Shown: one piece after another, positions 6,422 through 34,568 of the stretch | How positions within the stretch are numbered: the stretch's first letter is position 1 | Layout of the letters: every line of letters starts with the position of its first letter | Origin: Kiritimatiellia bacterium | Lineage (GTDB): Bacteria > Verrucomicrobiota > Kiritimatiellia > CAIQIC01 > Lenti-01 | NCBI GenBank assembly: GCA_017527155.1 | Contig: JAFXQI010000025.1 | Coordinates: 1-35,143 of the forward strand | Direction: 5' to 3' | Length of the DNA stretch: 35,143 nucleotides | The notes under the pieces: model-generated | Databases searched by the model: none | What the model saw: the letters and a program-made list of their open reading frames with translations, nothing else | Told to the model about the DNA's origin: nothing | Position numbers and translations under genes: made by a program

Positions 6422-6575
6422 TTTTCCAATGATTGGAAAATTTTTTTCCAATGGTTGGAAAATTTATGGCATTTTTTCCAATGATTGGAAAAAATGTTTC
6501 CAATGGTTGGAAAAATCGGGGCGGTTTTTCCAATGATTGGAAAAATTTTCCGGGCGTTTTCCAATGATTGGAAAA
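6422..6575. repeat. Six-copy palindrome array TTTTCCAATGATTGGAAAA
   Basis: 19-bp near-perfect palindromes start at 6422, 6444, 6474, 6496, 6526 and 6557. Copies 1, 3, 5 and 6 have the centre ATGATT; copies 2 and 4 have ATGGTT. Spacing alternates 22 and 30 bp (then 31), so the array is built of 52-bp dimers. Each unit can fold into an 8-bp stem with a 3-base loop. It lies between the convergent ATPase and membrane-protein genes, in an AT-rich island. It may act as bidirectional terminators or protein-binding sites. Confidence 0.9.
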
Positions 6576-7248: not shown

Positions 7249-7265
7249 GAGGGCGGGCGGGGGTT

Positions 7266-7295
7266 GTGAGATTACGGAAAACATTGGGGTTTTCG
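7266..7295 (+). repeat. Element E, degenerate copy
   Basis: GAGATTACGGAAAACATTGG, then GGTTTTCG. This is the 5' half of the 58-bp element seen complete at 23163-23220 and 32180-32237; the 3' GGTGGCGCCCATG block is absent. It abuts the 3' end of amt. Confidence 0.5.
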
Positions 7296-7309: not shown

Positions 7310-8593
7310 TCAGGTGTTGGAGAAGAACTGGAAGGAGGCGTAGGCGTCCTGGCCGTGTTCGACGAGGTCGAGGCCTTTGAGTTCGGTGGTCGCCGGTACG
7401 CGCAGGATGTGCAGGCGCTTGAGGGCCGCGAAGATGACCGCGCCCATGCTGAACGCCCAGAGCGCCGTCGCGCCCGCGCCCAGGGCCTGCACGCCGAGGA
7501 GGCGGAGGCCACCGCCATAGAAGAGGCCCGCGAGGTCGTTGCCGTAGCCGGCGGCGGCGGGGGCGGCGAAGAGGCCCACGGCCAGGGTGCCCCATACGCC
7601 GTTGACGCAGTGGACGGAGACGGCGCCCACCGGGTCGTCGATGTGCAGCCGGTCGAAGGCGAACACGGAGAGCACCACCAGCACGCCCGCGACAAGGCCG
7701 ATCGCGATGGCAGCGTTCGCGGTCACGAGGTCGCAGGGTGCGGTGATGGCGACGAGGCCCGCCAGGCTGCCGTTGAGCGCCATCGTCAGGTCGGGCTTGC
7801 CCATGATGATCCATGCGGTGACGAGGGCCGCGCAGGTGCCCGCGCAGGCGGCGAGGTTCGTGGTCATGGCGACGCGGCCGATGGAGGCGGTGCCCGCGGT
7901 GTAGCTGCCGGGGTTGAAGCCGAACCACCCGATCCAGAGGAGGAAGACGCCCAGGGTCCCCAGCACGAGGCTGTGGCCCGGGATGGGGTTGGCCTTGCCG
8001 TCGGGACGGTATTTGCCGAGGCGCGGGCCGAGGGCGATCGCGCCCGCGAGGGCAATCCAGCCGCCGACGGAGTGGACGACGGTGGACCCGGCGAAGTCGT
8101 GGAAGCCCAGGGCTTCGAGCCAGCCCTGCGAGGCTTCGCCCGCCAGGGAGCCCCACATCCAGTGGCCGCTCACGGGGTAGACGAGGGCGCTGACGAGGAC
8201 GGAGTAGATGAGGTACGCCTTGAATTCGATGCGCTCGGCGACGGCGCCGGAGACGATGGTCGCGGCCGTCGCGGCGAACATGGTCTGGAAGAAGAGGAAG
8301 GTCCAGTCCCATGTGTCGGCGGAGGCGGAGAGCTGCGGCATGCCCAAGCCGCCCCAGCCGAACCATCCGGACGCGGCGCTCGCGCCGAACATGAGGGCGG
8401 CGCCGAGGAGGTAGAAGGCCAGGGAGCCGGCGGCGAAGTCCATGAGGTTCTTCATCATGATGTTCGCCGCGTTCTTGGCGCGGGTGAAGCCGGTCTCCAC
8501 CAGCGCGAAGCCCGCCTGCATCATGAAGACGAGGATCGCGGCGAGGAGGGTCCAGACGACGTCGAGGTTGTGTTGGACGAGGGTGGGGTTCAT
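7310..8593 (-). CDS. amt: Ammonium transporter
   Basis: 427 residues with about eleven membrane spans, the usual Amt/MEP/Rh length. Conserved segments include AGFALVETGFTRAKNAANIMMKN, DFAGSTVVHSVGGW and SVHCVNGVWGTLA. The latter two carry the twin pore histidines. It moves ammonium across the inner membrane and is usually blocked by the T-loop of a PII partner, encoded just upstream here. Its 5' leader is a tandem octamer array running right up to the ATG, and no Shine-Dalgarno is visible. It is co-oriented with glnN and the PII gene, and probably in one transcript with them. Confidence 0.96.
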   Translation of the reverse strand: MNPTLVQHNLDVVWTLLAAILVFMMQAGFALVETGFTRAKNAANIMMKNLMDFAAGSLAFYLLGAALMFGASAASGWFGWGGLGMPQLSASADTWDWTFLFFQTMFAATAATIVSGAVAERIEFKAYLIYSVLVSALVYPVSGHWMWGSLAGEASQGWLEALGFHDFAGSTVVHSVGGWIALAGAIALGPRLGKYRPDGKANPIPGHSLVLGTLGVFLLWIGWFGFNPGSYTAGTASIGRVAMTTNLAACAGTCAALVTAWIIMGKPDLTMALNGSLAGLVAITAPCDLVTANAAIAIGLVAGVLVVLSVFAFDRLHIDDPVGAVSVHCVNGVWGTLAVGLFAAPAAAGYGNDLAGLFYGGGLRLLGVQALGAGATALWAFSMGAVIFAALKRLHILRVPATTELKGLDLVEHGQDAYASFQFFSNT

Positions 8594-8689
8594 GGTTGAA
8601 AGGTTGAAAGGTTGAAAAGTTGAAAGGTTGAAGGGTTGAAAGGTTGAAGGGTTGAAGGGTTGAAGGGGTGGAGGGGTGGAAGGGATGAA
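8594..8689 (+). repeat. Octamer array (GGTTGAAR)12 in the amt leader
   Basis: Twelve 8-base units in register, starting directly at the amt start codon. The units next to the gene are closest to GGTTGAAA and they decay toward GGGTGGAG/GGGATGAA. On the amt strand the unit is YTTCAACC. It replaces any ribosome-binding site. Confidence 0.9.
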
Positions 8690-9147: not shown

Positions 9148-9189
9148 CGATTGCAATCGAATGCACTCGAATGCAGTCGATTGCAATCG
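9148..9189. repeat. Decamer array 1 (CGATTGCAAT)4
   Basis: Units CGATTGCAAT, CGAATGCACT, CGAATGCAGT, CGATTGCAAT in exact 10-bp register. CGATTGCAATCG is itself palindromic. It lies between glnN and the PII gene. Related arrays are at 11479-11523 and 13211-13254. Confidence 0.85.
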
Positions 9190-11478: not shown

Positions 11479-11523
11479 TCGACTGCAATCGATTGCAGTC
11501 GAGAGCAATCGATTGCAATCGAC
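11479..11523. repeat. Decamer array 2
   Basis: Units GACTGCAATC, GATTGCAGTC, GAGAGCAATC, GATTGCAATC, then GACTC. Helically phased palindromic units lie 50-110 bp upstream of the glnN sigma-54 promoter. Confidence 0.85.
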
Positions 11524-13210: not shown

Positions 13211-13254
13211 TCGAATGCCGTCGACTGCAATCGACTGCAATCGATTGCGGTCGA
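13211..13254. repeat. Decamer array 3
   Basis: TCGAATGCCG, TCGACTGCAA, TCGACTGCAA, TCGATTGCGG, TCGA in exact 10-base register. It sits between the 3' ends of the activator gene and gspF. This location is not upstream of any gene. Confidence 0.85.
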
Positions 13255-22975: not shown

Positions 22976-23162
22976 GGGGAGTCGTTGGTTTCGTTTTGCA
23001 AGGGAACGTCTAGCAGAAGGCCCGCCGCGAAACAACGGCAAACACGCCTCCGGCGGCGGATGGATCCGGCGCCCCCTCCCCTGCGCGGGCGGCATGGAAG
23101 GGGGGCAAACAGGCCCTCCCCCGCCGGTTCCATCCCCGTCCGGGGCGGAAGGGAAACATGTT

Positions 23163-23220
23163 TTGAGATTACGGAAAAACATGGACATTCCACCGGTTTT
23201 CCCGCATGGTGGCGCCCATG
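23163..23220 (+). repeat. Element E, complete copy (upstream of the methylase)
   Basis: 58 bases from TTGAGATTACGG to GGTGGCGCCCATG. The same length and same end blocks as 32180-32237, with the middle diverged. Oriented toward the downstream gene, ending 120 bp before its ATG. Confidence 0.7.
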
Positions 23221-23301
23221 AAAACCGTGGGTGCGGACGGGAGCGGATGGATGGGGGGGGCGCCCGCGCTCCGGCGCAAGAAGCATCCCCGGCGGGGACA
23301 G

Positions 23302-23330
23302 TTGCCAACCGGGGGGAAGTCGGGTATGGT
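23302..23330 (+). promoter_or_regulatory. Promoter of the methylase-nuclease operon (near-leaderless)
   Basis: TTGCCA (23302-23307), 17 bases, TATGGT (23325-23330). The ATG is 10 bases further, so the leader would be about 4 bases. Confidence 0.55.
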
Positions 23331-23340
23331 GGAACGCGCC

Positions 23341-24258
23341 ATGAATGGTTCCGTGCCTCACATTGTCCAGTACCAAGGGTCGAAACGGCTGCTCGCGCCG
23401 CAAATCCTGGAGTACGTGCCCCGGCGGTTCGGGCGTCTGGTGGAGCCCTTCGCGGGGATGGCCGCCATCACCATCGCCGTGGCGCGGCAGGAGCGGGCGG
23501 AGCGCTACCTCGTCAACGACCTGAACGCGCCTTTGGTGGGGATTCTGCGGGCGGCCGTCGAAACGCCGTCGGAACTGCTGGAAAGCTATGCGGCCGTCTG
23601 GGAGGGGCAGTTCAGCCACCCCGGGGGGAGCGTGGCGCATTTCAACGCGGTGCGGGATGCGTTCAACCGCGGCGACCGCTCTCCGGCCAACATGCTCTAC
23701 CTGCTGGCCCGGTGCGTGAAGGGTTCCGTGCGCTACGGGGCGAACGGCCAGTTCAACCAGTCGCCCGACAAACGCCGCAACGGGACGTCGCCCAAGACGC
23801 TCAAGCCCAATCTGGACGCCATCTCCTACTACCTCAAGGGACGCACCGAGTTCCGCTCGGCGGACTACCGCGCCGTGCTGGAGGAGGCCCGTCCCGGCGA
23901 CGTCGTGTACATGGATCCTCCCTACCAGGGCGTGTGCAAGGTGCGCGACAGCCGCTATCTCGCGGGCATCGACGCACGGGAGTTCGCCGAGGCCCTCGAA
24001 TCGCTGAACCGCCGCGGGGTGGACTATCTCGTCAGCTACGACGGCCAGTGCGGGGACAAGCAGTACGGGGAAGACCTGCCCGCCGGCCTGGGTCTGCGCA
24101 AGGTGTTGCTGAAAGCCGGCCTTTCGAGCCAGAGCCTGCTGCTCGGCAAGAAGGAAATCACCTACGAAGCGCTCTACATCAGCCCGGGCCTCTGCTCCCT
24201 CGTGCCCGGCACGCCACGGGAACGGCAGGCCCTGCTCTTCGAAATGCTGGACGCATGA
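23341..24258 (+). CDS. D12-class DNA adenine-N6 methyltransferase (restriction-modification)
   Basis: 305 residues. Motif order is Dam/DpnM-like: QYQGSKR (10-16, motif X), EPFAGMAAITIAVA (motif I, SAM), and catalytic DPPY (192-195, motif IV), with ISYYLKGRTEFRSADYRAVLEEARPGDVVYMDPPYQG typical. Methylates adenine in a short site that cannot be read from the sequence. The stop overlaps the start of an HNH nuclease by ATGA, so this is a two-gene restriction-modification unit. The start is the first ATG after the -10; the longer frame to 23206 runs through repeat DNA. Confidence 0.9.
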   Translation: MNGSVPHIVQYQGSKRLLAPQILEYVPRRFGRLVEPFAGMAAITIAVARQERAERYLVNDLNAPLVGILRAAVETPSELLESYAAVWEGQFSHPGGSVAHFNAVRDAFNRGDRSPANMLYLLARCVKGSVRYGANGQFNQSPDKRRNGTSPKTLKPNLDAISYYLKGRTEFRSADYRAVLEEARPGDVVYMDPPYQGVCKVRDSRYLAGIDAREFAEALESLNRRGVDYLVSYDGQCGDKQYGEDLPAGLGLRKVLLKAGLSSQSLLLGKKEITYEALYISPGLCSLVPGTPRERQALLFEMLDA

Positions 24259-24965
24259 AGAAGAAGTTCACCAAAGCCTTCCTGGCAAAGCTCGAATCCG
24301 TGACGGCGAAACGTCCGCGCACGGTCATCCGGCACATCCTGGAACACGGCTCCGTGACGACGGAGGAGCTGAAACGGCTCGGTTACGAACACGCCCCGCG
24401 CGCGGCCCGCGACGTCCGCGAACTGGGCATCCCCCTCGAAACGTTCCGGGTCAGGGACTCGCAGGGCCGCCGCATCGCGGCCTACCGTTTCGGCGATCCT
24501 TCCAAGGCGGGAAACCGGATGTCGAAGGCGTCCGGCCGCACGGTCCTTTCCAAGGCGCTGAAAAAAGCCCTCGTCGGCAAATACGGTGCCCGCTGTTTCA
24601 TCTACCGGCAACCGATGGAGGAGCGCCTGTTGCAGGTGGACCACCGGGTGCCGTACGAAATCGGCGGGGAGCAGGACGGACGGGACATCGACTGCTACAT
24701 GCTGCTCAGCCCATCGGCCAACCGCGCCAAATCGTGGACCTGCGAGCATTGCCCGAACTGGACCCTCAAGGATGCCGCCTACTGCGTGGGCTGTTTCTGG
24801 GCCCATCCCGAGGAATACACCCACGTGGCCGGACGGGAGCAGCGCCGGATCGTCATCACCTTCACCGGCGACGAAATCGAAGACTACAACCGCCTGATCG
24901 CCCTTGTCGGCATCGACAAGGCCGAGGCGACGATCAAGGAAATGATCGCAAAATACATCGAATAG
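24255..24965 (+). CDS. HNH restriction endonuclease of the methylase operon
   Basis: 236 residues. An N-terminal winged-helix segment (VIRHILEHGSVTTEELKRLGYEHAPRAARDVRELGI) could read DNA or regulate. The middle has the beta-beta-alpha metal motif VDHRVPYEIGG (D129, H130) and LLSPSANRAKSW as the HNH asparagine region. A zinc knuckle follows (CEHCPNW...CVGC). It should cut the site protected by the upstream methylase. It overlaps that gene by 4 bases, giving translational coupling. Role inferred from the pairing; the site is unknown. HNH enzymes are known among short-site restriction enzymes. Confidence 0.8.
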   Translation: MKKKFTKAFLAKLESVTAKRPRTVIRHILEHGSVTTEELKRLGYEHAPRAARDVRELGIPLETFRVRDSQGRRIAAYRFGDPSKAGNRMSKASGRTVLSKALKKALVGKYGARCFIYRQPMEERLLQVDHRVPYEIGGEQDGRDIDCYMLLSPSANRAKSWTCEHCPNWTLKDAAYCVGCFWAHPEEYTHVAGREQRRIVITFTGDEIEDYNRLIALVGIDKAEATIKEMIAKYIE

Positions 24966-25001
24966 ACGGCCGGGTTCCGGTGCCGTGCCGGAGGGTGAAT
25001 C

Positions 25002-25030
25002 TTGCATCCCGTCCGGTTTCCTGCCATCCT
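25002..25030 (+). promoter_or_regulatory. Candidate promoter of the AlkD-like gene
   Basis: TTGCAT (25002-25007), 17 bases, CATCCT (25025-25030), then 7 bases to the ATG. The -10 is weak, but the layout repeats that of other genes here. Confidence 0.4.
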
Positions 25031-25037
25031 GCACGGC

Positions 25038-25778
25038 ATGGAACGTGACACGCCCATTCCGCCGGCCGCCGCGGCGGTCGTCCGCGACCTGCGCGCCGCC
25101 GCTTCCGCGGAAAAGCGCGAGGTCCTTTCGCGGTTCTTCCGCACGGGCCCGGGCGAATACGGGGAGGGCGACCGGTTCCTCGGGGTCATGGTCCCGCAGA
25201 TCCGCGCCATCGCGAAGGCGCACGCGGGGGCGCCGCCGGAGGCCGAGGACGCCCTGCTGGCCGCGCCGTGGCACGAGGCGCGGGAATGCGGTCTTTTCCT
25301 GATGGTCGGCCGCCATGCCCGCGCCGGCGCCCGGGAACGCGACGCGATCCATGCGCGCTATCTCGCCGCGGCCGCCGCCGGGCACGTCGACAACTGGGAC
25401 CTCGTCGATGCCAGCGCCCCCGAGCTCGTCGGGGTCCACCTGCTCGACCGGCCGCGCGGCCTCCTCTACGGCCTCGTGCGGCGTCCGTCGCTTTGGGAGA
25501 ACCGGATCGCCATCGTGGCCACGCTGGCCTTCATCCGGCGCGGCGACCTCGATGACGCCTTCCGGCTGTCGGAGGTCCTTCTCGGGCATCCCCACGACCT
25601 GATCCACAAGGCCGTCGGCTGGATGCTCCGCGAATGCGGCAAGCGCGATCCGGACCGTCTCCGCGCCTTCCTCGCCGCCCATTGCGGCGCGATGCCCCGC
25701 ACCACCCTCCGCTATGCCATCGAGCGGTTCCTTCCCGACGAACGGCGCCGGTGGCTCGCTGCGCCGGCGGGGCCGTGA
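25038..25778 (+). CDS. DNA alkylation repair glycosylase, AlkD-like
   Basis: 246 residues in HEAT-like helical repeats. RFFRTGPGEYGEGDRFLGVMVPQIRAIAK, GHVDNWDLVDASAPELVGVHLL and HPHDLIHKAVGWMLRECGKRDPDRLRAFL match AlkD/AlkC relatives that remove 3- and 7-alkylpurines. The N/D-N-W-D-L-V-D segment carries the catalytic Asp and aromatic residues. The ATG at 25038 lies 7 bases after a -10-like hexamer; an in-frame TTG at 25002 overlaps the -35 and is rejected. It follows the restriction-modification genes with a 72-base spacer and may be independently transcribed. Confidence 0.88.
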   Translation: MERDTPIPPAAAAVVRDLRAAASAEKREVLSRFFRTGPGEYGEGDRFLGVMVPQIRAIAKAHAGAPPEAEDALLAAPWHEARECGLFLMVGRHARAGARERDAIHARYLAAAAAGHVDNWDLVDASAPELVGVHLLDRPRGLLYGLVRRPSLWENRIAIVATLAFIRRGDLDDAFRLSEVLLGHPHDLIHKAVGWMLRECGKRDPDRLRAFLAAHCGAMPRTTLRYAIERFLPDERRRWLAAPAGP

Positions 25779-25798
25779 CAGGGGGGGGATGAAACGGG

Positions 25799-25829
25799 GG
25801 GCGGCTCGCTCGGAGAGCTCGCCCCACCA
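25799..25829 (+). repeat. 40-bp GC element, partial copy 3
   Basis: GGCGGCTCGCTCGGAGAGCT, then CGCCCCACCA: 30 bases identical to the 3' part of the copies at 15831 and 15877, 10 kb away. It lies between the AlkD-like gene and the biotin ligase gene (convergent). Confidence 0.8.
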
Positions 25830-25846
25830 CGCCGGGAGAGCGGGGC

Positions 25847-26563
25847 TTACGGGGCGGCGGGGGGGCGGGCGCCGGAGCGGAGCCAGAGGGTGTGGAGGCG
25901 GGGATAGGGGATGGAGCGGACGTCGCGGAGGGTGGCGGAGAGGAGGTCGAGGACGGGGGGGATGGAGGAGGGGTGGCCTTCGATGAGGCAGGAGGTGGCG
26001 GAGGGGCGGATGTCGGGGGGGAAGTCGAGAGGGGTCTGGAGGAGGTTGAGGCCGATGCCCAGGATCACGAATTCGACGCGGGTCGCCGTCAGACGCGGCT
26101 CGGCCAGGATGCCGCAGATTTTCTTTCCGCGGCAGAGGATGTCGTTGGGGTATTTGACGGCCAGGTTTTCGAGTCCCAGGGCCCGCAGGGCGAAGAGCGC
26201 GGTCATGGCGCCGTAGACGGCCCAGACGTTGGCTTGGGAGGCCGGGCAGTCCGCCGGGCGCAGGATGTAGGAGACGGGAAGGCCCAGTCCGGGCGGGGAG
26301 CTCCAGGTGTGGCCGCGCTGGCCGCGGCCGGCGGTCTGGTCGTGGGCGGTGACGAGAGCGCCGTCGGGGGCGCCCGCAAGGGCCCAGCGGCGGGCGGCAT
26401 CGTTGGTGGAGGGGGTGGTGCGGAGCCAGAGGCGGGGGAGGCCGGGGAGGAGGGGAGATGGGGCCGACGGGGCGGCCCCCGGCAGGACCGGGACAGGCGA
26501 GGCGGCAGGGGCGGACGGGTCAGGGGAAGAGGCGGAGGCTCTCGGTGATGGAGTCGCAGACAT
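25847..26563 (-). CDS. birA: Biotin-protein ligase, no DNA-binding domain
   Basis: 238 residues. Joins biotin to the acetyl-CoA carboxylase carrier through biotinyl-AMP. The catalytic loop is AGRGQRGHTWSSPPG and KYPNDILCRGKKICGILAEPR is the other signature, followed by VILGIGLNL. Lacks the N-terminal repressor winged helix (group I ligase). The first ~45 residues are Pro/Ala/Ser-rich and include a copy of the 34-bp dispersed repeat (26464-26497) read in frame. No ATG, GTG or TTG is present between that repeat and the catalytic domain, so the start at 26563, overlapping the upstream aminotransferase gene by 44 bases, is the only conventional one. Confidence 0.88.
   Translation of the reverse strand: MSATPSPRASASSPDPSAPAASPVPVLPGAAPSAPSPLLPGLPRLWLRTTPSTNDAARRWALAGAPDGALVTAHDQTAGRGQRGHTWSSPPGLGLPVSYILRPADCPASQANVWAVYGAMTALFALRALGLENLAVKYPNDILCRGKKICGILAEPRLTATRVEFVILGIGLNLLQTPLDFPPDIRPSATSCLIEGHPSSIPPVLDLLSATLRDVRSIPYPRLHTLWLRSGARPPAAP
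26464..26497 (+). repeat. 34-bp GC element, copy C, within birA
   Basis: CCGACGGGGCGGCCCC, then CGGCAGGACCGGGACAGG. It encodes part of the low-complexity N-terminus of the ligase (VPVLPGAAPSA). Confidence 0.65.
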
Positions 26564-27722
26564 AGGGGAGGGTCGCGGGGAGGAGGCCGGCGACGTTGAT
26601 GCGGCCGCCTTTGACCATGTAGATGGCGCGTTCGGCGCGCAGCCACGCGACTTGGGCTTCGGTCAGGCCGCTGTAGGAGAACATGCCGTTCTGGCGGACG
26701 ATGTAGGTGAAGTCGCGGTCGGGGTTGCGGGCGGCGAGGCCGTCGGCGAGGAGTGTTCGGTTGCCGGCGATGCGGCGCTGCATGGCTGCGAGTTCGTGGA
26801 GCCAGAGGGCGCGGAGTTCGGTGTCGGCCAGGATGGTCCCGGCGATGGCGGCGCCGTGGCGCGGCGGGTTGGAGTAGAGGACGCGCGCGATGCGGCGGAC
26901 GTGGGTGAGGGCGGCTTGGGCGTCGTCGGGGGTGCGCGCGAGGAGTTGCAGGGACCCGGCGCGTTCGCTGTAGAGGCCCATGTTCTTGGAGAAGGAGGTG
27001 GCGACCAGGGCTTCGGGGACGCGGGAGAGGACGGTGAGCAATCCGGCGCGGTCGTCGACGGGGTTTTGGCCGAAGCCTTGGTAGGCGAAGTCGAAGAAGG
27101 GGAGCCAGCCGCGCGTTTCGGCGATGGCGGCGATTTGTTGCCAGAGGGCGGGGTCGGGGTCGGCGCCGGTGGGGTTGTGGCAGCAGGCGTGCAGGAGGAC
27201 GATGTCGGTGGGGGGGACGGCGGAAAGGGCGTCGAGGAGGGGGGCGTCGGCGACGGAGCGGGAGGCGGGGTCGTACCAGGGGTAGGTGTCCTGGGCGAGG
27301 CCGACGTCGCGGAGGATGGCGCCGTGGTTGCCCCAGGTGGGGGCGGGCAGCCATACGGTGGCGCCGGGGCGCAGTTGCCGGGCGAGGGCGAAGCCGAGGC
27401 GCAGGGCGCCGGTGCCACCGAGGGCCTGCGCGGCGGCGATGCGGCCTTCGCGCAGGGGGGCGAAGTCGCCGCCAAAGACGAGTTCGCCGACGAGGCGCAT
27501 GGTCGCGGGGTCGCCGGAGATGGGGAGGTACGATTTTGTCTTTTCGGTGGCGGCGAGGAGGTGCTCGGCCTTGCGGACGGCGTCCAGGATGGGCGTGGTG
27601 CCGGTTTCGTCCATGAACACGCCGACGCCCAGGTTGACCTTGCAGGGACGCGGGTCGGCGCGGTAGGCGTCGGTCAGGCCCAGGATGGGGTCGGGCGGGG
27701 CGGGCTGGATGCGGTCGAACAT
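26520..27722 (-). CDS. Aspartate/aromatic-amino-acid aminotransferase (class I)
   Basis: 400 residues, usual AspC/TyrB length. PLP enzyme exchanging amino groups between glutamate and aspartate or aromatic 2-oxoacids. VNLGVGVFMDETGTTPIL, YLPISGDPATMRLVGEL, LHACCHNPTGADPD, DFAYQGFGQ, SFSKNMGLYSERAG (PLP lysine) and SNPPRHGA are the Ialpha-subgroup signatures. Ends near RINVAGLL. GAGGAGG upstream of the ATG. The stop lies inside the start of birA, so the two are co-transcribed. AspC and TyrB cannot be told apart here. Confidence 0.93.
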   Translation of the reverse strand: MFDRIQPAPPDPILGLTDAYRADPRPCKVNLGVGVFMDETGTTPILDAVRKAEHLLAATEKTKSYLPISGDPATMRLVGELVFGGDFAPLREGRIAAAQALGGTGALRLGFALARQLRPGATVWLPAPTWGNHGAILRDVGLAQDTYPWYDPASRSVADAPLLDALSAVPPTDIVLLHACCHNPTGADPDPALWQQIAAIAETRGWLPFFDFAYQGFGQNPVDDRAGLLTVLSRVPEALVATSFSKNMGLYSERAGSLQLLARTPDDAQAALTHVRRIARVLYSNPPRHGAAIAGTILADTELRALWLHELAAMQRRIAGNRTLLADGLAARNPDRDFTYIVRQNGMFSYSGLTEAQVAWLRAERAIYMVKGGRINVAGLLPATLPYVCDSITESLRLFP

Positions 27723-27768
27723 GGCGGAGGACCTCCTCGCGGGGCGGTGGGGGGCGGGTGCGGACGGC

Positions 27769-28929
27769 TCAGGGGTAGTAGGCTTCGACCCAGGAGCAGA
27801 TGCTCTCGGAATCGACCTGCGTGATGCCCATCTCGCGCGCGGCGTTCTCGGGGGAGTCGGAGGCGTGGGCGGCGTTGACCATGACGTCGGTGCCGAATTC
27901 GCGGCGGACGGACCCGGTGGCGGCCTTGGTGGGGTCGGTGGAGCCGAGGATGGTCCGGATGCGCGAGATGGCGTTCGGGCCGGCGTAGACGAGCAGGAGG
28001 CAACGGACGGTGCCGGGCTTGGCCTTCTCGCTCTCGACGAGGCCTTCGCCCCAGCGGCCGGTCATGAACTGCACGATCTGGTAGAACTGGTTGTCGCCGT
28101 AGAGGGGGCCGAGCAGGTCGCCGAGCTTGCCCTTGGTTTCTTCGGTGAGCTCCATCCCGAGCTCGGCGGCGACGGCCTTGGCGGAGCGTTCGGCGACCTT
28201 GCCCTTGAGCTTTTCGCGCAGGACCTGCTGGACGGGGCCGTAGAAGCGCTCGGCCTCGGCGACGCTCATGCGGTGGACCTTCGCGCAGACGATGCGCAGG
28301 CCGCTGCGGGAGAAGATGTCGATGATCTGTCCCGGGCGGGCGGACGCGAAGCGGAAGTTGTCGGGCTTGAGGATGACGAGGGCGCGCTGGCTGTCGGCTT
28401 CCTGGACGACGTCGCCGGCGGTGTCGACCATGCCGCCGTCCTCGGCGCTGTGGGCGGCCCAGAGCTTGAGGGCGGCGCCGGCGCTGCGGACGGAGGGGCC
28501 GATGAAGACGGCGGGCTCGAAGTACTGGACGTCGCCGGAGGCGCCGATGATGTAGTCGCCGTAGGTGTCGCGGATGGTCTCGCCGGCGTTGGCGGGGCGG
28601 ATGGGGCCGGTGGCGTCCTTGATGCGCTTGATGGCGTCCTCGCCCTCGAAGAGGAGCATCATGACGCGGCGGCGGGCACCGGTGGTCGGGTCGGGGGCGT
28701 AGCGGTGGGCGACGTAGTCGGCGAGGAGCGGGCGGGCGACGGGATCGACTTCCTCGTCGTGGCGGATGAGGTCGGCGTACTTCTGCGCGAGTTCGGCGCT
28801 CGGGGCGAACATGCGGGCGGCGACGAGGTCGAGGCCGGTGCGCGAGATGTAGCGGCCGATGATGCCGCCGGTGCGCGACTTGGAGACGGTGTAGGGGTTG
28901 ATGAGGACGAAGGCCAGTTCTTTGGACAT
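27769..28929 (-). CDS. ndk: Nucleoside-diphosphate kinase with a degenerate second domain
   Basis: 386 residues, against 140-150 for a normal NDK. The N-terminal half (LAFVLINPYTVSKSRTGGIIGRYISRTGLDLV...) is an NDK fold that has lost its active histidine: GETIRDTYGDYIIGASGD replaces the usual N-x-x-H-G-S-D-S. The C-terminal half (RALVILKPDNFRFASARPGQIIDIFSRSGLRIV...) keeps VMVNAAHASDSPENAAREM with H355. It also has a ~50-residue helical insertion between PVQQVL and FYQIVQFMTGRW. GGAG precedes the ATG. Tandem duplication with one domain turned structural or regulatory is the simplest reading. Confidence 0.85.
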   Translation of the reverse strand: MSKELAFVLINPYTVSKSRTGGIIGRYISRTGLDLVAARMFAPSAELAQKYADLIRHDEEVDPVARPLLADYVAHRYAPDPTTGARRRVMMLLFEGEDAIKRIKDATGPIRPANAGETIRDTYGDYIIGASGDVQYFEPAVFIGPSVRSAGAALKLWAAHSAEDGGMVDTAGDVVQEADSQRALVILKPDNFRFASARPGQIIDIFSRSGLRIVCAKVHRMSVAEAERFYGPVQQVLREKLKGKVAERSAKAVAAELGMELTEETKGKLGDLLGPLYGDNQFYQIVQFMTGRWGEGLVESEKAKPGTVRCLLLVYAGPNAISRIRTILGSTDPTKAATGSVRREFGTDVMVNAAHASDSPENAAREMGITQVDSESICSWVEAYYP

Positions 28930-28990
28930 TGGATGCTCCGGGTTGGGTTGGGGTGGATGCCAGGGCCCGCCGCGGGGCGGACCGCGGAGC

Positions 28991-29018
28991 ATTCAACCAC
29001 GTCCCGGCGGAAATGCAA
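28991..29018 (-). promoter_or_regulatory. Candidate ndk promoter
   Basis: On the minus strand TTGCAT (29018-29013), 16 bases, TTGAAT (28996-28991). A leader of about 55 bases precedes the ATG at 28929. Confidence 0.45.
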
Positions 29019-29060
29019 GAGCGGTTTGGGGCGGGGAGGCGGGGAAGGCGGTGCGATTTC

Positions 29061-29121
29061 CATGGCGGGGATGGAGGGGAGAAACGGCCGGAAAACAAGG
29101 GATTTTCCTTGATATCGCGAG
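29061..29121 (-). repeat. Element F, copy 1 (upstream of ndk)
   Basis: Read on the minus strand: CTCGCGATATCAAGG, then GGAAAA-TCCCTTG-TTTTCC-type inverted arms, then about 25 bases to an ATG. The last 32 bases (29090-29121) are nearly identical to 34537-34568. Same layout as element E; oriented toward ndk. Confidence 0.65.
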
Positions 29122-29149
29122 GGGTTGGGGAGGGGGATGCGGCGGGGCT

Positions 29150-29177
29150 TTGCAAAGGGCGGGGAATCGGGTATGGT
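29150..29177 (+). promoter_or_regulatory. mscS promoter (near-leaderless)
   Basis: TTGCAA (29150-29155), 16 bases, TATGGT (29172-29177), 7 bases to ATG. Confidence 0.55.
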
Positions 29178-29184
29178 CGGGGGC

Positions 29185-30321
29185 ATGAAAAGTCTGGCAG
29201 ATTTGTGGGCGACGGTTGCGGCGTGGTGGCACGGGATCGCGGAGAACGTGATCTGGAAGCGTGGGCGCCTGGACATCACCACCGGCGAGGTGGTCTGGTG
29301 CGCGCTGCTGCTGCTGGCCGTGCTGTGGGGCATCCGGTGGCTCGCGCACTGGGTCGTGCGGCGGATGCCGGAACCGGTGCGCGAGGACCCGGACGTGCCC
29401 AGGCGGGTGGTGCGGGGGCTCTACCTCGTCTCGCTCGTGCTGGCGGGACTGGCGGCGCTGGCCATCATGGACATCCCGTACAAGCGGTTCATCGACATCC
29501 CGCTCTGGAAGATGGGCGGGCGGAACATCACCGCCGGCGGCCTGCTCTGGGCGCTGGGCCTGCTGCTGGCGGGACGGTGGATCAGCCGCGTCCTCGCGTA
29601 CTGGTTCGTGCAGCGCCTGCCGAAGGCGGTGCGCGAGGCGCCGGAAATGCAGACGCGGGTGCCGAGGGCGCTGTACATCGCGTTCTTCCTGCTGTTCGTG
29701 CTGGGGGCGCTGCAGATCGCGGGAATCCCGCTCAAGACGTTCACGTTCCTGGGCAGCGCGATCGCGCTGGGCTTCGGCTTCGGCGCGCAGAACCTGTGCA
29801 GCAACATCATCAGCGGCGTGATCCTCAAGCTGACGCGCCCGCTGGGCAAGGGGGACATCATCGAGACCGACGGGCGGGCGGGGACGGTGCAGGTGGTGGG
29901 GTTCCGGTCGACGGAGATTTTGACGTTCGACGGAGTGCACCTGGAGGTGCCGAACAGCAACCTGCTGTCGTCGACGATCGTGACGCGCACGACGAATTCG
30001 GGGATGCTGCGCGGGTCGCTGACGGTGGGGGTGTCGTACGATTCGGATTCGCGGCTGGTGGAGAGGCTGCTGACGGAGCTGGTGGAGAACCATCCGACGG
30101 TGGTGCACGAGGAGGGGCGGGCGAACCGGGTGCTGTTCAAGAACTTCGGGGACAGCGCGCTGGAGTTCCAGGTCCTCTACTGGGTGGACATCGGCAAGAC
30201 GACGCTGGACATCGTGGGCGGGGAGCTGAGGCACGCGATCCTGGAGACGTTCCGGGCGAACCGGATTTCGATTCCGTATCCGCAGGTGGACGTGCACATG
30301 CCGGAGGGCGCGGGGAAGTGA
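29185..30321 (+). CDS. mscS: MscS-family mechanosensitive channel
   Basis: 378 residues. Inner-membrane channel opened by membrane tension, releasing solutes after osmotic downshock. Several hydrophobic segments precede the pore helix (about 35-55, 85-105, 130-150, 170-190). The family core LGSAIALGFGFGAQNLCSNIISGVILKLTRPLGKGDIIETDGRAGTVQVVGFRSTEI includes the Gly/Ala-rich TM3 and beta domain. The C-terminus ends ISIPYPQVDVHMPE, the usual MscS close. The extra N-terminal spans are like the longer MscS/YnaI-type channels. Start chosen 7 bases after the -10; the frame extends farther upstream without a ribosome site. Confidence 0.92.
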   Translation: MKSLADLWATVAAWWHGIAENVIWKRGRLDITTGEVVWCALLLLAVLWGIRWLAHWVVRRMPEPVREDPDVPRRVVRGLYLVSLVLAGLAALAIMDIPYKRFIDIPLWKMGGRNITAGGLLWALGLLLAGRWISRVLAYWFVQRLPKAVREAPEMQTRVPRALYIAFFLLFVLGALQIAGIPLKTFTFLGSAIALGFGFGAQNLCSNIISGVILKLTRPLGKGDIIETDGRAGTVQVVGFRSTEILTFDGVHLEVPNSNLLSSTIVTRTTNSGMLRGSLTVGVSYDSDSRLVERLLTELVENHPTVVHEEGRANRVLFKNFGDSALEFQVLYWVDIGKTTLDIVGGELRHAILETFRANRISIPYPQVDVHMPEGAGK

Positions 30322-30334
30322 CGGAGGGGGCGGC

Positions 30335-30368
30335 CCGACGGGGCGGGCCGCGGCGGGACGGGGACAGG
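30335..30368 (+). repeat. 34-bp GC element, copy D
   Basis: CCGACGGGGCGGGCCGCGG, then CGGGACGGGGACAGG. In the convergent spacer between mscS and the ACT-domain gene. Confidence 0.65.
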
Positions 30369-30393
30369 GGAGGAGGCGGGGGCGGGGGCGGGG

Positions 30394-30804
30394 TCAGGCG
30401 CCGAGGGCGGCGAGGGCGGTGTCGATGTCGGAGGGGCAGAGGACGATGCCTTTTTCGTTGTCCGGGCCGCCCATGACGTAGGCGTATTCGATGTTCACTT
30501 CCGCTTCCGCCATCCGCTTGAGGACGCGCCCGAGTTCGCCGGGGGTGTTGTCGGCGTGCACCAGCAGGACGTCGGTCGCGGCGACGAGTTCGTTGGAGTC
30601 TTCGATGAGCTGCCGGGCTTTCTCGGTGTCGGAGACGATCAGCCGGGCGTGGCCGTGGCCTTCGCCCGTGACGGCGACCGCCAGACCGTAGATGTTCACG
30701 CCGTTGCGGCCGAGGAAGGAGGCAAGGTCGCCCAGGGTGCCGTGGCGGTTGTCGAGGTAGACGGTCAGCTGGGTGCCGCGGGTGATGACGAGGTTGGGTT
30801 GCAT
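30394..30804 (-). CDS. Tandem ACT-domain protein
   Basis: 136 residues forming two ACT domains: about 8-70 (LTVYLDNRHGTLGDLASFLGRNGVNIYGLAVA) and 76-136 (VLLVHADNTPGELGRVLKRMAEAEVNIEYAYV). ACT domains bind amino acids and regulate enzymes. There is no catalytic part, so it should be a stand-alone sensor. AAAGG upstream of the ATG; 19 bases after the dapL stop on the same strand, so in one operon. A role in lysine or aspartate-family control is plausible but inferred; similar proteins also sit next to acyl-CoA ligases. Confidence 0.85.
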   Translation of the reverse strand: MQPNLVITRGTQLTVYLDNRHGTLGDLASFLGRNGVNIYGLAVAVTGEGHGHARLIVSDTEKARQLIEDSNELVAATDVLLVHADNTPGELGRVLKRMAEAEVNIEYAYVMGGPDNEKGIVLCPSDIDTALAALGA

Positions 30805-30823
30805 GGCGGAAGGCCTTTCGGGG

Positions 30824-32050
30824 TCAGAAGACGAGGTTGGCGGTGGCGAGGCGGCGGGCGAGTTCGTCGAGGACGCGCGCGTCGTCGTGCGGGCCCGCGG
30901 ATTCGAAGGTCGCCCCGAAGCGGAGGTAGGCGCCCGCGTCGTCCCACGGGACGGTCGAGATGCTGCATTCGGTGATGAGGTACTGCGCGGCGTCTTCGGC
31001 GGTCGCGAAGGTGCGGCCGTCCGCCGTGCCCTTCGGCGCCGGGACGTAGAGGTAGAAGGTGCCGCCGGGCATCCGGGCCTTGAAGCCCGCCGCCTTCAGG
31101 ATGCGCACCATCCGGCGCAGGCGGCGCTGGTAGTGGGCGCGGATCTTCTCGGAGAGGCGCAGGTCCGCGATGCCCGCGCAGGCCGCCACCTGGATGGCCT
31201 TGAACTGGCCGCTGTCGATGTTGTCCTTGACCGTCGCGACGGCCTTCACCGCCGGCGCGGAGCCCGCCACGAAGCCGAGGCGCCAGCCGGTCATGTTGTA
31301 GCTCTTGCTCATGGAGTGCAGCTCGATCGCCGCTTCCTTGCCGCCCGGGCGCGAGAGGATGGAAAGGCGGTCGCGGCCGTAGACGAGCGTGGCGTAGGCG
31401 GCGTCCTGGACGATCAGGATGTTGTGGCGGTTCGCGAAGGCAATCAGTTCGTCGAAGAAGTCCGCCGTCGCGGCGGCGCCGGTCGGGTTGTTGGGGTAGT
31501 TGACATAGAAGAGCTTGGCGCGGGAGAGATCCTGCTTTTCGAGGGCCTTGAGGTCGGGGAAGAAACGGTTCTTCGCTAGGAGGGGGACCGGGATGACGGT
31601 GCCGCCGAGGTAGCGGGCGTGGGTCGCGAGGACGGGGTAGCCGGGGGTCGTCGCGAGGACGGCGTCGCCGGGGTTGACGAAGCAGGTCGGCAGCATCGCG
31701 AGGGCCGGCTTGGAGCCGATGGTGTGGTTGATCTCGGTCGCGGGGTCGAGGTCCGTGACGCCGAAGAAACCCGCCATGTAGGCGGCGGCGGCTTCCTTGA
31801 AGGCCGCGATGCCGTTGTCGGCGTAGCCGCGGTTGGCGGGGTCGTCGACGGCTTTCTTCAGGGCCTGGCGGATCGGGCGGGGGGCCATCTGGTCGGGCTC
31901 GCCGACGCCGAAGTCCAGCATCTCGCGCTCGGGGTGCGCCTCTAGGGCGGCGCGCTTGGCGCGCTTGATCTTCTCGAATTTGTAGATGGCGGTGTCCTTG
32001 CCGAAGGCGGCGCCGCCGATGCGGTCGGCGAAGAGGGTCTGGATGTCCAT
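30824..32050 (-). CDS. dapL: LL-diaminopimelate aminotransferase
   Basis: 408 residues. Converts tetrahydrodipicolinate and glutamate directly to LL-diaminopimelate for lysine and peptidoglycan, bypassing succinylase or acetylase routes. FEKIKRAKRAALEAHP, DFGVGEPDQMAPRPI, GYADNGIAAFKEAAAAYM, NYPNNPTGAAA, QDAAYATLVY and SMSKSYNMTGWRLGFV (PLP lysine) are typical of DapL and its class I aminotransferase relatives. Known mainly from plants, chlamydiae and PVC-type bacteria, which agrees with the taxonomic guess. AAAGGA 7 bases before the ATG excludes the longer frame to 32185. Followed by the ACT gene. Confidence 0.88.
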   Translation of the reverse strand: MDIQTLFADRIGGAAFGKDTAIYKFEKIKRAKRAALEAHPEREMLDFGVGEPDQMAPRPIRQALKKAVDDPANRGYADNGIAAFKEAAAAYMAGFFGVTDLDPATEINHTIGSKPALAMLPTCFVNPGDAVLATTPGYPVLATHARYLGGTVIPVPLLAKNRFFPDLKALEKQDLSRAKLFYVNYPNNPTGAAATADFFDELIAFANRHNILIVQDAAYATLVYGRDRLSILSRPGGKEAAIELHSMSKSYNMTGWRLGFVAGSAPAVKAVATVKDNIDSGQFKAIQVAACAGIADLRLSEKIRAHYQRRLRRMVRILKAAGFKARMPGGTFYLYVPAPKGTADGRTFATAEDAAQYLITECSISTVPWDDAGAYLRFGATFESAGPHDDARVLDELARRLATANLVF

Positions 32051-32080
32051 GGTGGGGTCCTTTCGGGTGAATCGGGGGGC

Positions 32081-32109
32081 ATTATGCAGGGGGGGGCGGG
32101 GGAGTGCAA
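32081..32109 (-). promoter_or_regulatory. dapL promoter
   Basis: Minus strand TTGCAC (32109-32104), 17 bases, CATAAT (32086-32081). About 25 bases of leader carry AAAGGA. Confidence 0.65.
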
Positions 32110-32179
32110 CGAATTTTGTGTGGGGGGGCAGGCCCCGCGGGGCCGGGCGCGGGACCTCTTGGAGGAGTGGAAAAAACTT

Positions 32180-32237
32180 TTGCAATTACGGGAAACATTG
32201 ATGTTTTCCATGGTTTTCCGTCAAGGTGGCGCCCATG
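32180..32237 (+). repeat. Element E, complete copy (upstream of amrS)
   Basis: TTGCAATTACG, an inverted repeat around GGAAACATTGATGTTTTCC (9-bp stem with one G-T pair), then GGTGGCGCCCATG. It is 58 bases long, as at 23163. The end block GGTGGCGCCCATGAAA is identical in both copies. Ends 46 bp before the amrS ATG. Confidence 0.75.
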
Positions 32238-32271
32238 AAAGTTCGGGGCTGGAAACGGCGGCGGGATGGGG

Positions 32272-32277
32272 TAGGAT
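32272..32277 (+). promoter_or_regulatory. -10 of a leaderless amrS promoter
   Basis: TAGGAT, then 6 bases to the ATG, so the start site would be the A of ATG. No clear -35 at 16-18 bases upstream. Confidence 0.4.
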
Positions 32278-32283
32278 GGGGGC

Positions 32284-33333
32284 ATGGACGAGTTGAAAGA
32301 AGCGAGGTTCTGGACGGCGGGGGAGGGCGGGAGCGTGCGGTGCGGGGTGTGTCCGCACGGGTGCGTGGTGGAGGAGGGGAGGAGGGGAAGGTGCGGGGTG
32401 CGGGGGAACGTGGGCGGGAGGATGCGGAGCCTGGTGTGGGGGAGGGCGGCGGCGGTGGCGGTGGATCCGGTGGAGAAGAAGCCGCTGTACCATTTCCTGC
32501 CGGGCGGGCGGGTGCTGTCGGTGGGGACGCTGGGGTGCAATCTGTCGTGCCGGTTCTGCCAGAACGACGGGCTGAGCCGGGCGTCGGCGGAGGAGGTGGA
32601 GGCGCTGGCGGGGGAGCGGGCGCTGGAGCCGGAGGAGGTGGCGGCGGCAGCGAGGGGGAGGGGGGTGCCGATGGTGGCCTTCACGTACAACGAGCCGGCG
32701 GTGTGGGCGGAATGGGCGGCGGAGACGGCGGCGGCGTGCCGGGAGGTGGGGGTGCGGTCGGTGGCGGTGACGAACGGGTACGTGGCGGGGAAGGCGCGGG
32801 AGGCGTTCTTCGGGGCGATGGATGCGGCGAACGTGGATTTGAAGGCGTTTTCGGAGGGATTCTACCGGAAGCAGTGCGGGGCGCGGCTGGGGCCGGTGCT
32901 GGAGACGCTGGAGTGGATCCGGCGGGAGTCGCGGTGCTGGCTGGAGGTGACGACGCTGGTCATCCCGGGGTTGAACGACTCGGACGGGGAGCTGGAGGCG
33001 CTGTCGGGGTGGGTGGCGGAGAAGCTGGGGGCGGAGACGCCGCTGCATCTGAGCGCGTTTTACGGGGCGTGCGAGATGGCGGGGGCGGCGCCGACGCCGG
33101 TGGGGACGTTGCTGCGGGCGCGGCGGATCGCGGCGGGGGCGGGGCTGAAGCACGTGTATCTGGGGAACGTGCGGGTGGAGGGGGGCGGGGATACGCGGTG
33201 CGCGGGGTGCGGGGCGGTGCTGGTGGAGCGGGAGGGGTTCGGGGCGCGGGTGCGGTGGGGGGAAGGGGAAGGGGCGGCGGCGGCGGGGAGGTGCCCGGTG
33301 TGCGGGAGGAGGTGCGGGGGGGTGTGGGAGTGA
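32284..33333 (+). CDS. amrS: AmmeMemoRadiSam-system radical SAM enzyme
   Basis: 349 residues. N-terminal Cys array C20, C23, C27, C37 (CGVCPHGCVVEEGRRGRCGVR), then radical-SAM CNLSCRFC (C85, C89, C92) and SVGTLGCNLSCRFCQNDGLSRA, VAFTYNEPAVWAEW, VTNGYV and NVDLKAFSEGFYRK. A C-terminal zinc-like tail (CAGC...CPVCGRRC) follows. It belongs to the radical-SAM member of the AmmeMemo system, whose function is unresolved. The partner Memo and AMMECR1 proteins are not in the window. The stop codon lies in the first unit of a heptamer array. G-rich codon use, with the ATG 6 bases after a -10. Confidence 0.9.
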   Translation: MDELKEARFWTAGEGGSVRCGVCPHGCVVEEGRRGRCGVRGNVGGRMRSLVWGRAAAVAVDPVEKKPLYHFLPGGRVLSVGTLGCNLSCRFCQNDGLSRASAEEVEALAGERALEPEEVAAAARGRGVPMVAFTYNEPAVWAEWAAETAAACREVGVRSVAVTNGYVAGKAREAFFGAMDAANVDLKAFSEGFYRKQCGARLGPVLETLEWIRRESRCWLEVTTLVIPGLNDSDGELEALSGWVAEKLGAETPLHLSAFYGACEMAGAAPTPVGTLLRARRIAAGAGLKHVYLGNVRVEGGGDTRCAGCGAVLVEREGFGARVRWGEGEGAAAAGRCPVCGRRCGGVWE

Positions 33334-33392
33334 AAACGAAAAACGAAAAGAGAAAAGAGAAAAGTGAAAAGAGAAAAGTGAAAAGCGAAAAA
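33330..33392 (+). repeat. Heptamer array (GTGAAAA/AGAAAAG)9
   Basis: Nine 7-base units, from GTGAAAA to CGAAAAA, variously T/A/C before GAAAAG. The amrS stop TGA is bases 2-4 of the first unit. Same family as the intragenic gltB array at 271-298. Confidence 0.85.
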
Positions 33393-33403
33393 GGGGCGGA
33401 GGG

Positions 33404-34105
33404 TCAGGGGGAGAGGGAGAGGGAGGTCCAGTCGATGGGGGGGAGGGTGGAGAGGGAGGTGCGGAGGAGGGAGAGGTAGGTGGAGCGGGGGAGGGGGGCG
33501 GCGCCGAAGCGGGCGAAGTGGGGGGACGGGGTCTGGCAGTCGATGAAGGGGCATCCGGCGGCGAACAGGGCCGGGGCCAGGACGGCGAAGGCGCATTTGG
33601 AGGCGTCGGGGACGAGGTGGAACATGGATTCGCCGACGAAGCAGGGGCCGACGGCGACGCCGTAGAGGCCGCCGACGAGGCGGTCGCCGTCCCAGGCTTC
33701 GGCGGAATGGGCGTGTCCGGCGCGGTGGAGGGCGGTGTAGCCGCGGCGGAGGGCGGGAGTGATCCAGGTGGTTTCGCCGTCGGGACGGGGGGCGCGGGCG
33801 CAGGCGGCGATGACCTGGGGGAAGGCGCGGTCGACGGTGATGCGGTAGGGGGCCTTCTTCAGGAGGCGGCGGAGGGTGTGGGGGATGCGGAAGTTTTCGC
33901 GCAGGAGGACGAAACGGGGATCGGGGGAATGCCAGGTGATGCGGCCGCGCCAGACGGACCAGGGGAAGATGCCGCCGCGGTAGGCGGCGAGGAGGCGGGG
34001 AACGCCGTAGTCGCCGCCGATGGCGAGGATGCCGTCGGGATCGGGGGCGGCGAGTTCGGCGGGCGGGAAGCCGGGGGTGTCGTCGGAGAGGAGCCAGAGG
34101 GGCAT
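33404..34105 (-). CDS. aat: Leucyl/phenylalanyl-tRNA-protein transferase
   Basis: 233 residues. Adds Leu or Phe to N-terminal Arg/Lys of proteins so that ClpS-ClpAP degrades them. FPPAELAAPDPDGILAIGGDYGVPRLLAAYRGGIFPWS, WHSPDPRFVL, FVGESMFHLVPDASKCAFAVL and FIDCQTPSPHFARFGA are the Aat hallmarks. The start ATG is 10 bases after clpS ends, with no strong ribosome site; translational coupling with clpS is likely. Normal length. Confidence 0.95.
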   Translation of the reverse strand: MPLWLLSDDTPGFPPAELAAPDPDGILAIGGDYGVPRLLAAYRGGIFPWSVWRGRITWHSPDPRFVLLRENFRIPHTLRRLLKKAPYRITVDRAFPQVIAACARAPRPDGETTWITPALRRGYTALHRAGHAHSAEAWDGDRLVGGLYGVAVGPCFVGESMFHLVPDASKCAFAVLAPALFAAGCPFIDCQTPSPHFARFGAAPLPRSTYLSLLRTSLSTLPPIDWTSLSLSP

Positions 34106-34115
34106 GGGAGAGGGC

Positions 34116-34439
34116 TCAGACGCTTTCGACGGCGGCCCGGAGGCCGCGGTCGAGGAGGGCGGCGGCGTGTTTTTCGGCGTCGGGACGGGGTTCGACTTCG
34201 GCGATGGCGCGGCCGGTGTTGTGGGCTTCGAGGGCGATGGTCTCGGCCAGGGGTTCGGGATGGCCGAAGACGTCCATGAGGGACGCGATGACGTGTTCGA
34301 AGGTGTTGACGTCGTCGTTGAAGAGGATGACCTGGGTGTCCCATCCGGAGGCGCCGTTGGAGTCGAGGACGGCGGTGGCGGCGTCGGCGTCGGTGGAGAA
34401 GCCGGGAGGGGTGAAGGGGATGGAGGAGGAGGGGGGCAT
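34116..34439 (-). CDS. clpS: ClpS N-degron adaptor
   Basis: 107 residues. Delivers proteins with bulky N-terminal residues to ClpA-ClpP. VILFNDDVNTFEHVIASLMDVFG holds the NDD and hydrophobic pocket. EAHNTGRAIAEVEPRPDAEKHAAALLDRGL is the usual C-terminal half, with the conserved His. N-terminal extension (PPSSSIPFTPPGFSTDADAAT) disordered, as in the family. The start follows a TACGCT -10 by 7 bases, so it is probably leaderless. Precedes aat in an operon. Possible extension to 34580 runs through repeat F and is rejected. Confidence 0.93.
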   Translation of the reverse strand: MPPSSSIPFTPPGFSTDADAATAVLDSNGASGWDTQVILFNDDVNTFEHVIASLMDVFGHPEPLAETIALEAHNTGRAIAEVEPRPDAEKHAAALLDRGLRAAVESV

Positions 34440-34446
34440 GGGCGGA

Positions 34447-34452
34447 AGCGTA
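34447..34452 (-). promoter_or_regulatory. -10 of a leaderless clpS promoter
   Basis: Minus strand TACGCT, then 7 bases (TCCGCCC) to the ATG at 34439. No convincing -35. Confidence 0.4.
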
Positions 34453-34502
34453 GCACGGAGCGGGGGGCGGGAGGGAGGGAAAAGCGCGGGGGAGGGGCGG
34501 GA

Positions 34503-34568
34503 TTTTTCATGGGAGGGAGGATGGGGGGATGGGGCTGGAAAATGCAGGGTTTTCCTTGATATCGCGAG
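34503..34568 (-). repeat. Element F, copy 2 (upstream of clpS)
   Basis: Minus strand: CTCGCGATATCAAGG, then GGAAAA-CCCTGCA-TTTTCC, about 25 bases, CATGAAA. The 32 bases at 34537-34568 match copy 1 at 29090-29121 closely. The ATG-like end lies about 70 bp before the clpS ATG. Confidence 0.65.

Follow-up and report, generated by a model that had tools for sequence, protein, structure and literature searches.

The 35,143-nt stretch of DNA analyzed here (referred to as the window; positions 1 to 35,143 of the forward strand of contig JAFXQI010000025.1, Kiritimatiellia bacterium assembly GCA_017527155.1) carries four short elements, two of a kind called E and two of a kind called F, which together with a third kind, C, form one superfamily with three box types and some hundreds of dispersed members. 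The superfamily is linked to a multi-copy gene family, and we hold it to be about an even call that E and F are solo left-end operator-promoter modules of this leaderless and probably mobile family. This proposal is based on the geometry of the solo elements, which is that of the family's own promoters, on box types that track the subgroups of the family, on an 11-mer, TGAGATTACGG, shared with homologues in the class, and on the sharp ends of the gene units. It is also based on the -10 sequence kept in solo copies in which the -35 stands at chance level, on a bias in orientation, on a lower divergence 3' of the element ATG, and on the exchange of A for B and of B for C-like boxes between species. 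The F box is designated type A and the E box type B, and the four elements of the window are the following:

E1 (type B), 23161-23222, plus strand: box TTTTGAGATTACGGAAAA at 23161-23178, 39 nt, ATGAA from 23218; 5' of a D12 methylase gene.
E2 (type B variant), 32178-32239, plus strand: box TTTTGCAATTACGGGAAA at 32178-32195, 39 nt, ATGAA from 32235; 5' of a radical SAM (amrS-like) gene at 32284.
F1 (type A), 29059-29121, minus strand: box CTCGCGATATCAAGGAAAA at 29121-29103, 39 nt, ATGGAA from 29063; 134 nt to the ndk start at 28929.
F2 (type A), 34506-34568, minus strand: box CTCGCGATATCAAGGAAAA at 34568-34550, 39 nt, ATGAA from 34510; 71 nt to the clpS start at 34439.

The sequence-only reading of this DNA had given the sequences and coordinates of E and F correctly to within a few bases, and its idea of a common geometry held, since the distance from box to ATG is exactly 39 nt in all four and they belong to one superfamily. 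It had also placed each element upstream of a gene in the same direction, which is true (D12 methylase, radical SAM, ndk, and clpS) once F is read on the minus strand, to which it belongs and which had not been stated. The identical ending that it reported for E, GGTGGCGCCCATGAAA, is indeed exact in E1 and E2, but genome-wide it is exact in these two only and is thus not a defining part of the element. The ATG of E1 is in frame with the D12 methylase reading frame.

We determined how common the elements are in the genome of this rumen-type bacterium, which probably belongs to the Kiritimatiellota (G000, 3.23 Mb in 114 contigs), and in its sister species (G001, isolate RUG11196). The F box had 96 matches in G000 at ≤2 mismatches (0 in the reversed control), the E box 133 at ≤3 mismatches (2 in the control), and the type C box, TTTTGGAAACAGGAAAA, 76 at ≤3 mismatches (3 in the control), counts that take in the gene-family promoters and the internal boxes of family genes. 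The box is invariant, with 2.0 bits at most positions. The spacing from GGAAAA to CATGAA peaked at 38-39 nt, with 50 cases in 824 kb and 0-2 at off-peak spacings. When box and ATGAA were counted jointly, 435 kb from G000 yielded 53 elements and 389 kb from the sister species 36, as against 0 in reversed sequence, which extrapolates roughly to 390 elements per genome. Matches to the strict form of the pattern, ANGGAAAA-N(37-40)-CATGAA, numbered 145 in G000, 77 in G001, and 0-8, near background, in 54 other relatives, and the expansion is confined to this genus as far as sampled. An absence of copies in relatives, which had been named as a result that would speak against these elements, was thus found in part: the sister species has the element, and distant relatives are without the solo form in numbers. 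We found no literature on the organism or on such elements in it. As to local arrangement, four tandem type B elements with a spacing of about 280 bp and a repeat unit 87-92% identical lie at L239 (G000 C60, about 15.8-16.7 kb), and recent duplicates of A elements, including about 170-300 bp downstream, lie at contig ends (L047, L048, and L013 on G000 C84, C104, and C21).

In a subset of copies, the element ATG is the start codon of a real gene. A search with one 324-aa protein of this family gave 78 matches in G000, some of which are contig-end fragments, and many members in the sister species too. The proteins are hydrophobic in an N-terminal segment and share a conserved core (GSRLADLEPTLD, KGW, YST-MRYK, and RLR), which we liken by eye, as a guess, to a helix-turn-helix. 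Searches of 18 members in Pfam, NCBIfam, and PDB gave no match, nor did PHROG, no homologue was found in phage records, and the AlphaFold model of the protein (7 sequences) was poor (mean predicted local distance difference test score, pLDDT, 51.5). Nearly every complete member examined is leaderless and begins with the box, TTGAC or TTGCA, about 17 nt, a -10 (for example CATNNT), about 8 nt, and ATGAA. The box follows the subgroup: it is the F box in close members (subgroup A), E-like in a second set (B), and C-like in the remainder. Members of A and B repeat their own box, inverted, within the coding end, exactly 192 nt 5' of the stop codon in 32 of 33 subgroup A genes, where it encodes N-S/P-L-I-S-R, and subgroup C is without a second box. 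The upstream and internal boxes of one gene differ at 0.85 of 12 positions on average, as compared with 2.38 after shuffling across subgroups A and B (0 of 20,000 shuffles); a finer matching within subgroup A or B alone was not above the shuffled level.

Homologues of the family were found by profile search in 40 of 288 genomes of the class, often in several copies per genome. Those of family f32 are also leaderless and have TTTC-TACG-ACCGTAATCTCATTTT 5' of the -35, and the complement of this sequence contains the above-mentioned 11-mer, which is the core of the G000 E box, in opposite orientation. Their inverted box lies 65-68 nt 5' of the stop codon in 9 of 11 complete genes and 86-89 nt in the other 2 (G279), regardless of protein length. 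Within a unit, the left and right boxes are matched to each other at their variable letters (1.64 vs 2.80 mismatches; 0 of 20,000). In some genomes of the class, a plain inverted repeat such as GAGAATT-N10-AATTCTC stands 5' of the -35. Several family copies in G233 (contigs C315, C208, C152, and C4) have in-frame stop codons, as if decaying.

Homology between copies of the family, both in f32 and in G000, starts at the left box and goes no further than about the stop codon, even for two copies 95% identical. These sharp ends indicate that the gene unit behaves as a mobile unit, and the right box being fixed relative to the end of the unit and not to the left box favors end recognition over a regulatory loop. 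Both facts, together with the inverted boxes at both ends, would also be expected if the solo copies were non-autonomous mini-elements, as are miniature inverted-repeat transposable elements (MITEs) or REPINs, with no regulatory role; the family protein would then be an unrecognized transposase acting on the box and the solos derivatives of left ends. We regard this explanation as possible but clearly short of even. It agrees with solo pairs from unrelated loci, which share sequence from about -4 to +65, with interiors up to about 88% shared, and none beyond. It does not explain why there is one box per solo, nor why box and ATGAA are retained around a variable interior.

To compare solo and gene-linked copies, we used 238 distinct elements of both species, 47 of which start a family gene and 191 of which are solo. 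TTG was found at the -35 place in 47 of 47 gene-linked copies and in 55 of 191 solos, the latter at chance level (47 after shuffling), whereas a -10-like hexamer was found in 46 of 47 gene-linked copies and in 116 of 191 solos (28 after shuffling). Hence, the full layout of a sigma-70-type leaderless promoter (-35, about 17 nt, -10, and start codon a few nt on) is seen in gene-linked copies only, and solos have the -10 and not the -35. Keeping the box, the -10, and ATGAA without a -35, solos look as expected of a promoter that depends on an activator at the box. Solo reading frames are not conserved where orthologous frames could be compared, and ATGAA is retained. Between the species, the 138 nt 3' of the element ATG diverge by 3.6%, a gene-like value, and the 138 nt 5' of it by 11.1% (p = 3e-14), which is consistent with a transcript that starts at the ATG. 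Among ten elements with an orthologue in the other species, of which three were wholly or partly gene-linked, divergence was 6.7% in the box, 9.2% in the interior, and 3.3% in CATGAA, and in some the interior had changed far more than flanks that are about 99% identical.

An ordinary large regulon of fixed, selected transcription factor sites, with the gene family as its regulators and the apparent mobility due to fast intergenic turnover, would likewise have an invariant box, a maintained -10 and start site, oriented copies, and slow change 3' of the ATG, and the fact that box and gene occur together in the class would be indirect evidence that the regulator binds the shared site. We nevertheless consider a regulon of this kind improbable: it would have 78 regulators in the form of sharp-ended copies and hundreds of housekeeping targets without a theme, unrelated solos share interiors up to about 88%, and close species differ in presence, absence, and type of the element.

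Among the identities that the sequence-only reading had considered, transcription signals fit because the plan of the elements is identical to that of the promoters of the multi-copy gene family, and one mobile-element superfamily fits the three box types and the dispersed, intergenic copies. The third, regulatory RNA leaders, found no support: RNAalifold gave 0 pairs for 26 aligned E copies, Rfam had no match in the window, and the box is likely untranscribed, since with a transcription start at the ATG it would lie outside the transcript. Structured, riboswitch-like leaders with a GGAAAA/TTTTCC stem are therefore very improbable indeed, even if the two sequences are able to pair and E2 alone has a good hairpin (GGAAACAT / ATGTTTTCC); besides the lack of consensus pairs and of an Rfam match, the T tracts are at times replaced by A tracts with the box unchanged.

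Our preferred reading, the operator-promoter module, would work as follows. Family proteins would bind the box of their own subgroup (A, B, or C), which at their own promoters would serve autoregulation or the recognition of unit ends. At a solo promoter without -35, the box-bound protein may recruit RNA polymerase; transcription would begin at the solo ATG, and the 5' AUGAA would provide a leaderless start for the ribosome. The gene units would move, solos would derive from their left ends, and modules would spread with the gene family, one type replacing another at a given site and so rewiring the promoters of ordinary genes. Box binding, transcription from solos, and movement are here inferred from the sequences.

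Placement of the elements relative to genes was analyzed with gene calls from a simple custom model. Solo copies are nearly all intergenic, and many copies inside genes in random orientation, which had been put forward as evidence against these elements, were not found; copies that lie regularly in genes are limited to those within members of the linked family, inverted and at a constant position. In gaps between co-directional genes, 48 of 56 copies from the fetched loci (p = 5e-8) and 21 of 25 from the contiguous sample (p = 9e-4) were oriented with the genes. This strong bias, and the conserved -10, argue against mini-elements without a regulatory role. Divergent and convergent gaps are occupied about in proportion to their number, which indicates that the element does not act solely as promoter for the gene that follows, and that convergent gaps are not avoided is as the mini-element explanation would have it. 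The next genes are diverse and include those for DnaJ, SurE, adenosine deaminase, threonine synthase, UvrD helicase, LemA, glucosamine-6-phosphate isomerase, MTHFR, RNase HII, exonuclease V gamma, and others. The element ATG showed no bias relative to the frame of the next gene (p = 0.53). In 12 of 19 eligible cases, the reading frame of the element closes with an ATGA that overlaps the next start (p = 0.012), and because orthologous pairs are among the 19, this is only a hint that element frames may be translationally coupled to the next gene.

Several observations weigh against the operator-promoter reading. About one fifth of the copies lie in convergent gaps, some less than 60 nt from the end of the opposing gene, from where no next gene could be driven, and some downstream genes, such as the methylase, seem to have a leaderless promoter of their own. 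The N-terminal hydrophobic segment is unusual for a regulator or a transposase, and a DNA-binding fold is a guess, given the lack of a family match and the poor model. Finally, solos are without the right-end box, which leaves the route of movement unexplained.

The two species differ in their elements at sites that are otherwise nearly identical. E, F, and C-like boxes are swapped or absent at orthologous sites with flanks 93-99% identical. At the clpS site, where the flanks are 98.7 and 99.2% identical, the sister species is without F2, and at L217/L278 a B box stands against a C-like box, TTGCAATCACGTGAAA, in the sister, both flanks being about 98% identical. At L188/L234 and L177/L242 (one flank each), an A element of G000 corresponds to a B in the sister. 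At ndk, both species have an A element, and the left flank of the sister copy is that of another A element of G000. That types are exchanged at one site suggests that they serve the same function at it. Presence and absence between species would agree with mini-elements, but neither a target duplication nor a clean empty site was seen, the clpS and L217/L278 sites differing by replacement and not by clean insertion. Gene order appears strongly scrambled between G000 and G001, though shared genes are about 96-98% identical (sampled), and 24 of 41 judgeable intergenic gaps of at least 60 nt are not collinear. Elements are not clearly preferred sites of rearrangement, with 11 breaks and 7 collinear cases at element gaps and 13 and 10, respectively, elsewhere.

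These results connect an anonymous abundant repeat with a family of source genes and with a recognition sequence that is conserved across the class. In a bacterium, it could be followed site by site how a multi-copy gene family spreads regulatory sites, the swaps of box type at near-identical sites would be natural experiments in regulatory rewiring, and the system may show how a spreading gene family takes over a bacterium's promoters. That an undescribed kind of self-binding, spreading family (about 78 genes) seeded the genus with hundreds of typed A, B, and C operator-promoters, which replace one another at the same genes, and that mobile regulators control a large share of housekeeping transcription, is a bolder proposal that we put forward tentatively and think rather doubtful.

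In its working, the system is most like RAYT genes with their REPINs, and by analogy it would belong to the known kind of a multi-copy gene with dispersed recognition elements. RAYT genes are linked to repetitive extragenic palindromic sequences (REPs) and REPINs, hundreds of short extragenic elements with the same sequence as the ends of the gene, with several types per genome (PMC3116915). Likewise, we found hundreds of extragenic elements, a source gene with the same sequence at its ends, and several types. However, the present element is non-palindromic, forms no inverted doublet, and carries a -10 and a start codon, and there are about 78 gene copies, whose protein has no recognizable transposase domain. 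The hairpin doublet of REPINs is absent: the box is not palindromic over its length, is single in each solo, and forms no consensus pair. The Y1 (HUH) transposase of RAYTs was not recognized in the 18 members searched in Pfam, NCBIfam, and PDB, and a gene flanked by an inverted repeat was seen for subgroups A and B, not for subgroup C, and again in homologues from other families. MITEs and their parent insertion sequences are similar in that one end of a mobile-looking unit with a protein gene exists in short non-coding copies, and in their sharp ends, but here the solo has one end only, no target duplication was seen, and the parent protein is unmatched in all libraries searched. In place of terminal inverted repeats, a solo has one box and, at its other end, CATGAA, and a transposase with catalytic residues was not found in library searches. 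Identification as REPIN/RAYT, MITE, or known insertion sequence was rejected, each failing on its defining features (palindromic doublet and HUH; two terminal repeats; transposase).

Putative mobile promoters are promoter sequences that appear at non-orthologous genes within one genome. The elements share this property and differ by the conserved upstream box, the fixed 39-nt spacing, the linked gene family, and the lack of a -35. Autoregulated transcription factors with dimeric operators are similar in having a box directly 5' of the -35 of the presumed DNA-binding protein's own gene, as a plain inverted repeat in some relatives, but differ from our family in its second, inverted box in the 3' end of the gene, its tens of copies per genome, and its sharp-ended dispersal.

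Two further features of the window touch these elements:

Partial type B box TGTGAGATTACGGAAAA, 7265-7281, plus strand: the fifth E box in the window, without ATGAA at the fixed distance.
Putative leaderless-type promoter of the methylase itself, 23302-23343, plus strand: TTGCCA at 23302-23307, 17 nt, TATGGT at 23325-23330, ATG at 23341; read by eye and not a statistical call.

The window also contains other repeats. A palindrome array, TTTTCCAATGATTGGAAAA, lies at 6422-6514, and since similar stretches recur at other G000 loci and, in the sister species, between genes at L243, it is probably a second dispersed repeat family. Repeats of 10-mers of the CGATTGCAATCG / CGAATGCA type, inverted between sites, were found at 9148-9189, 11480-11521, and 13212-13253, and a tandem 8-base unit, GGTTGAAA/G, at 8586-8665, 5' of a long minus-strand gene.

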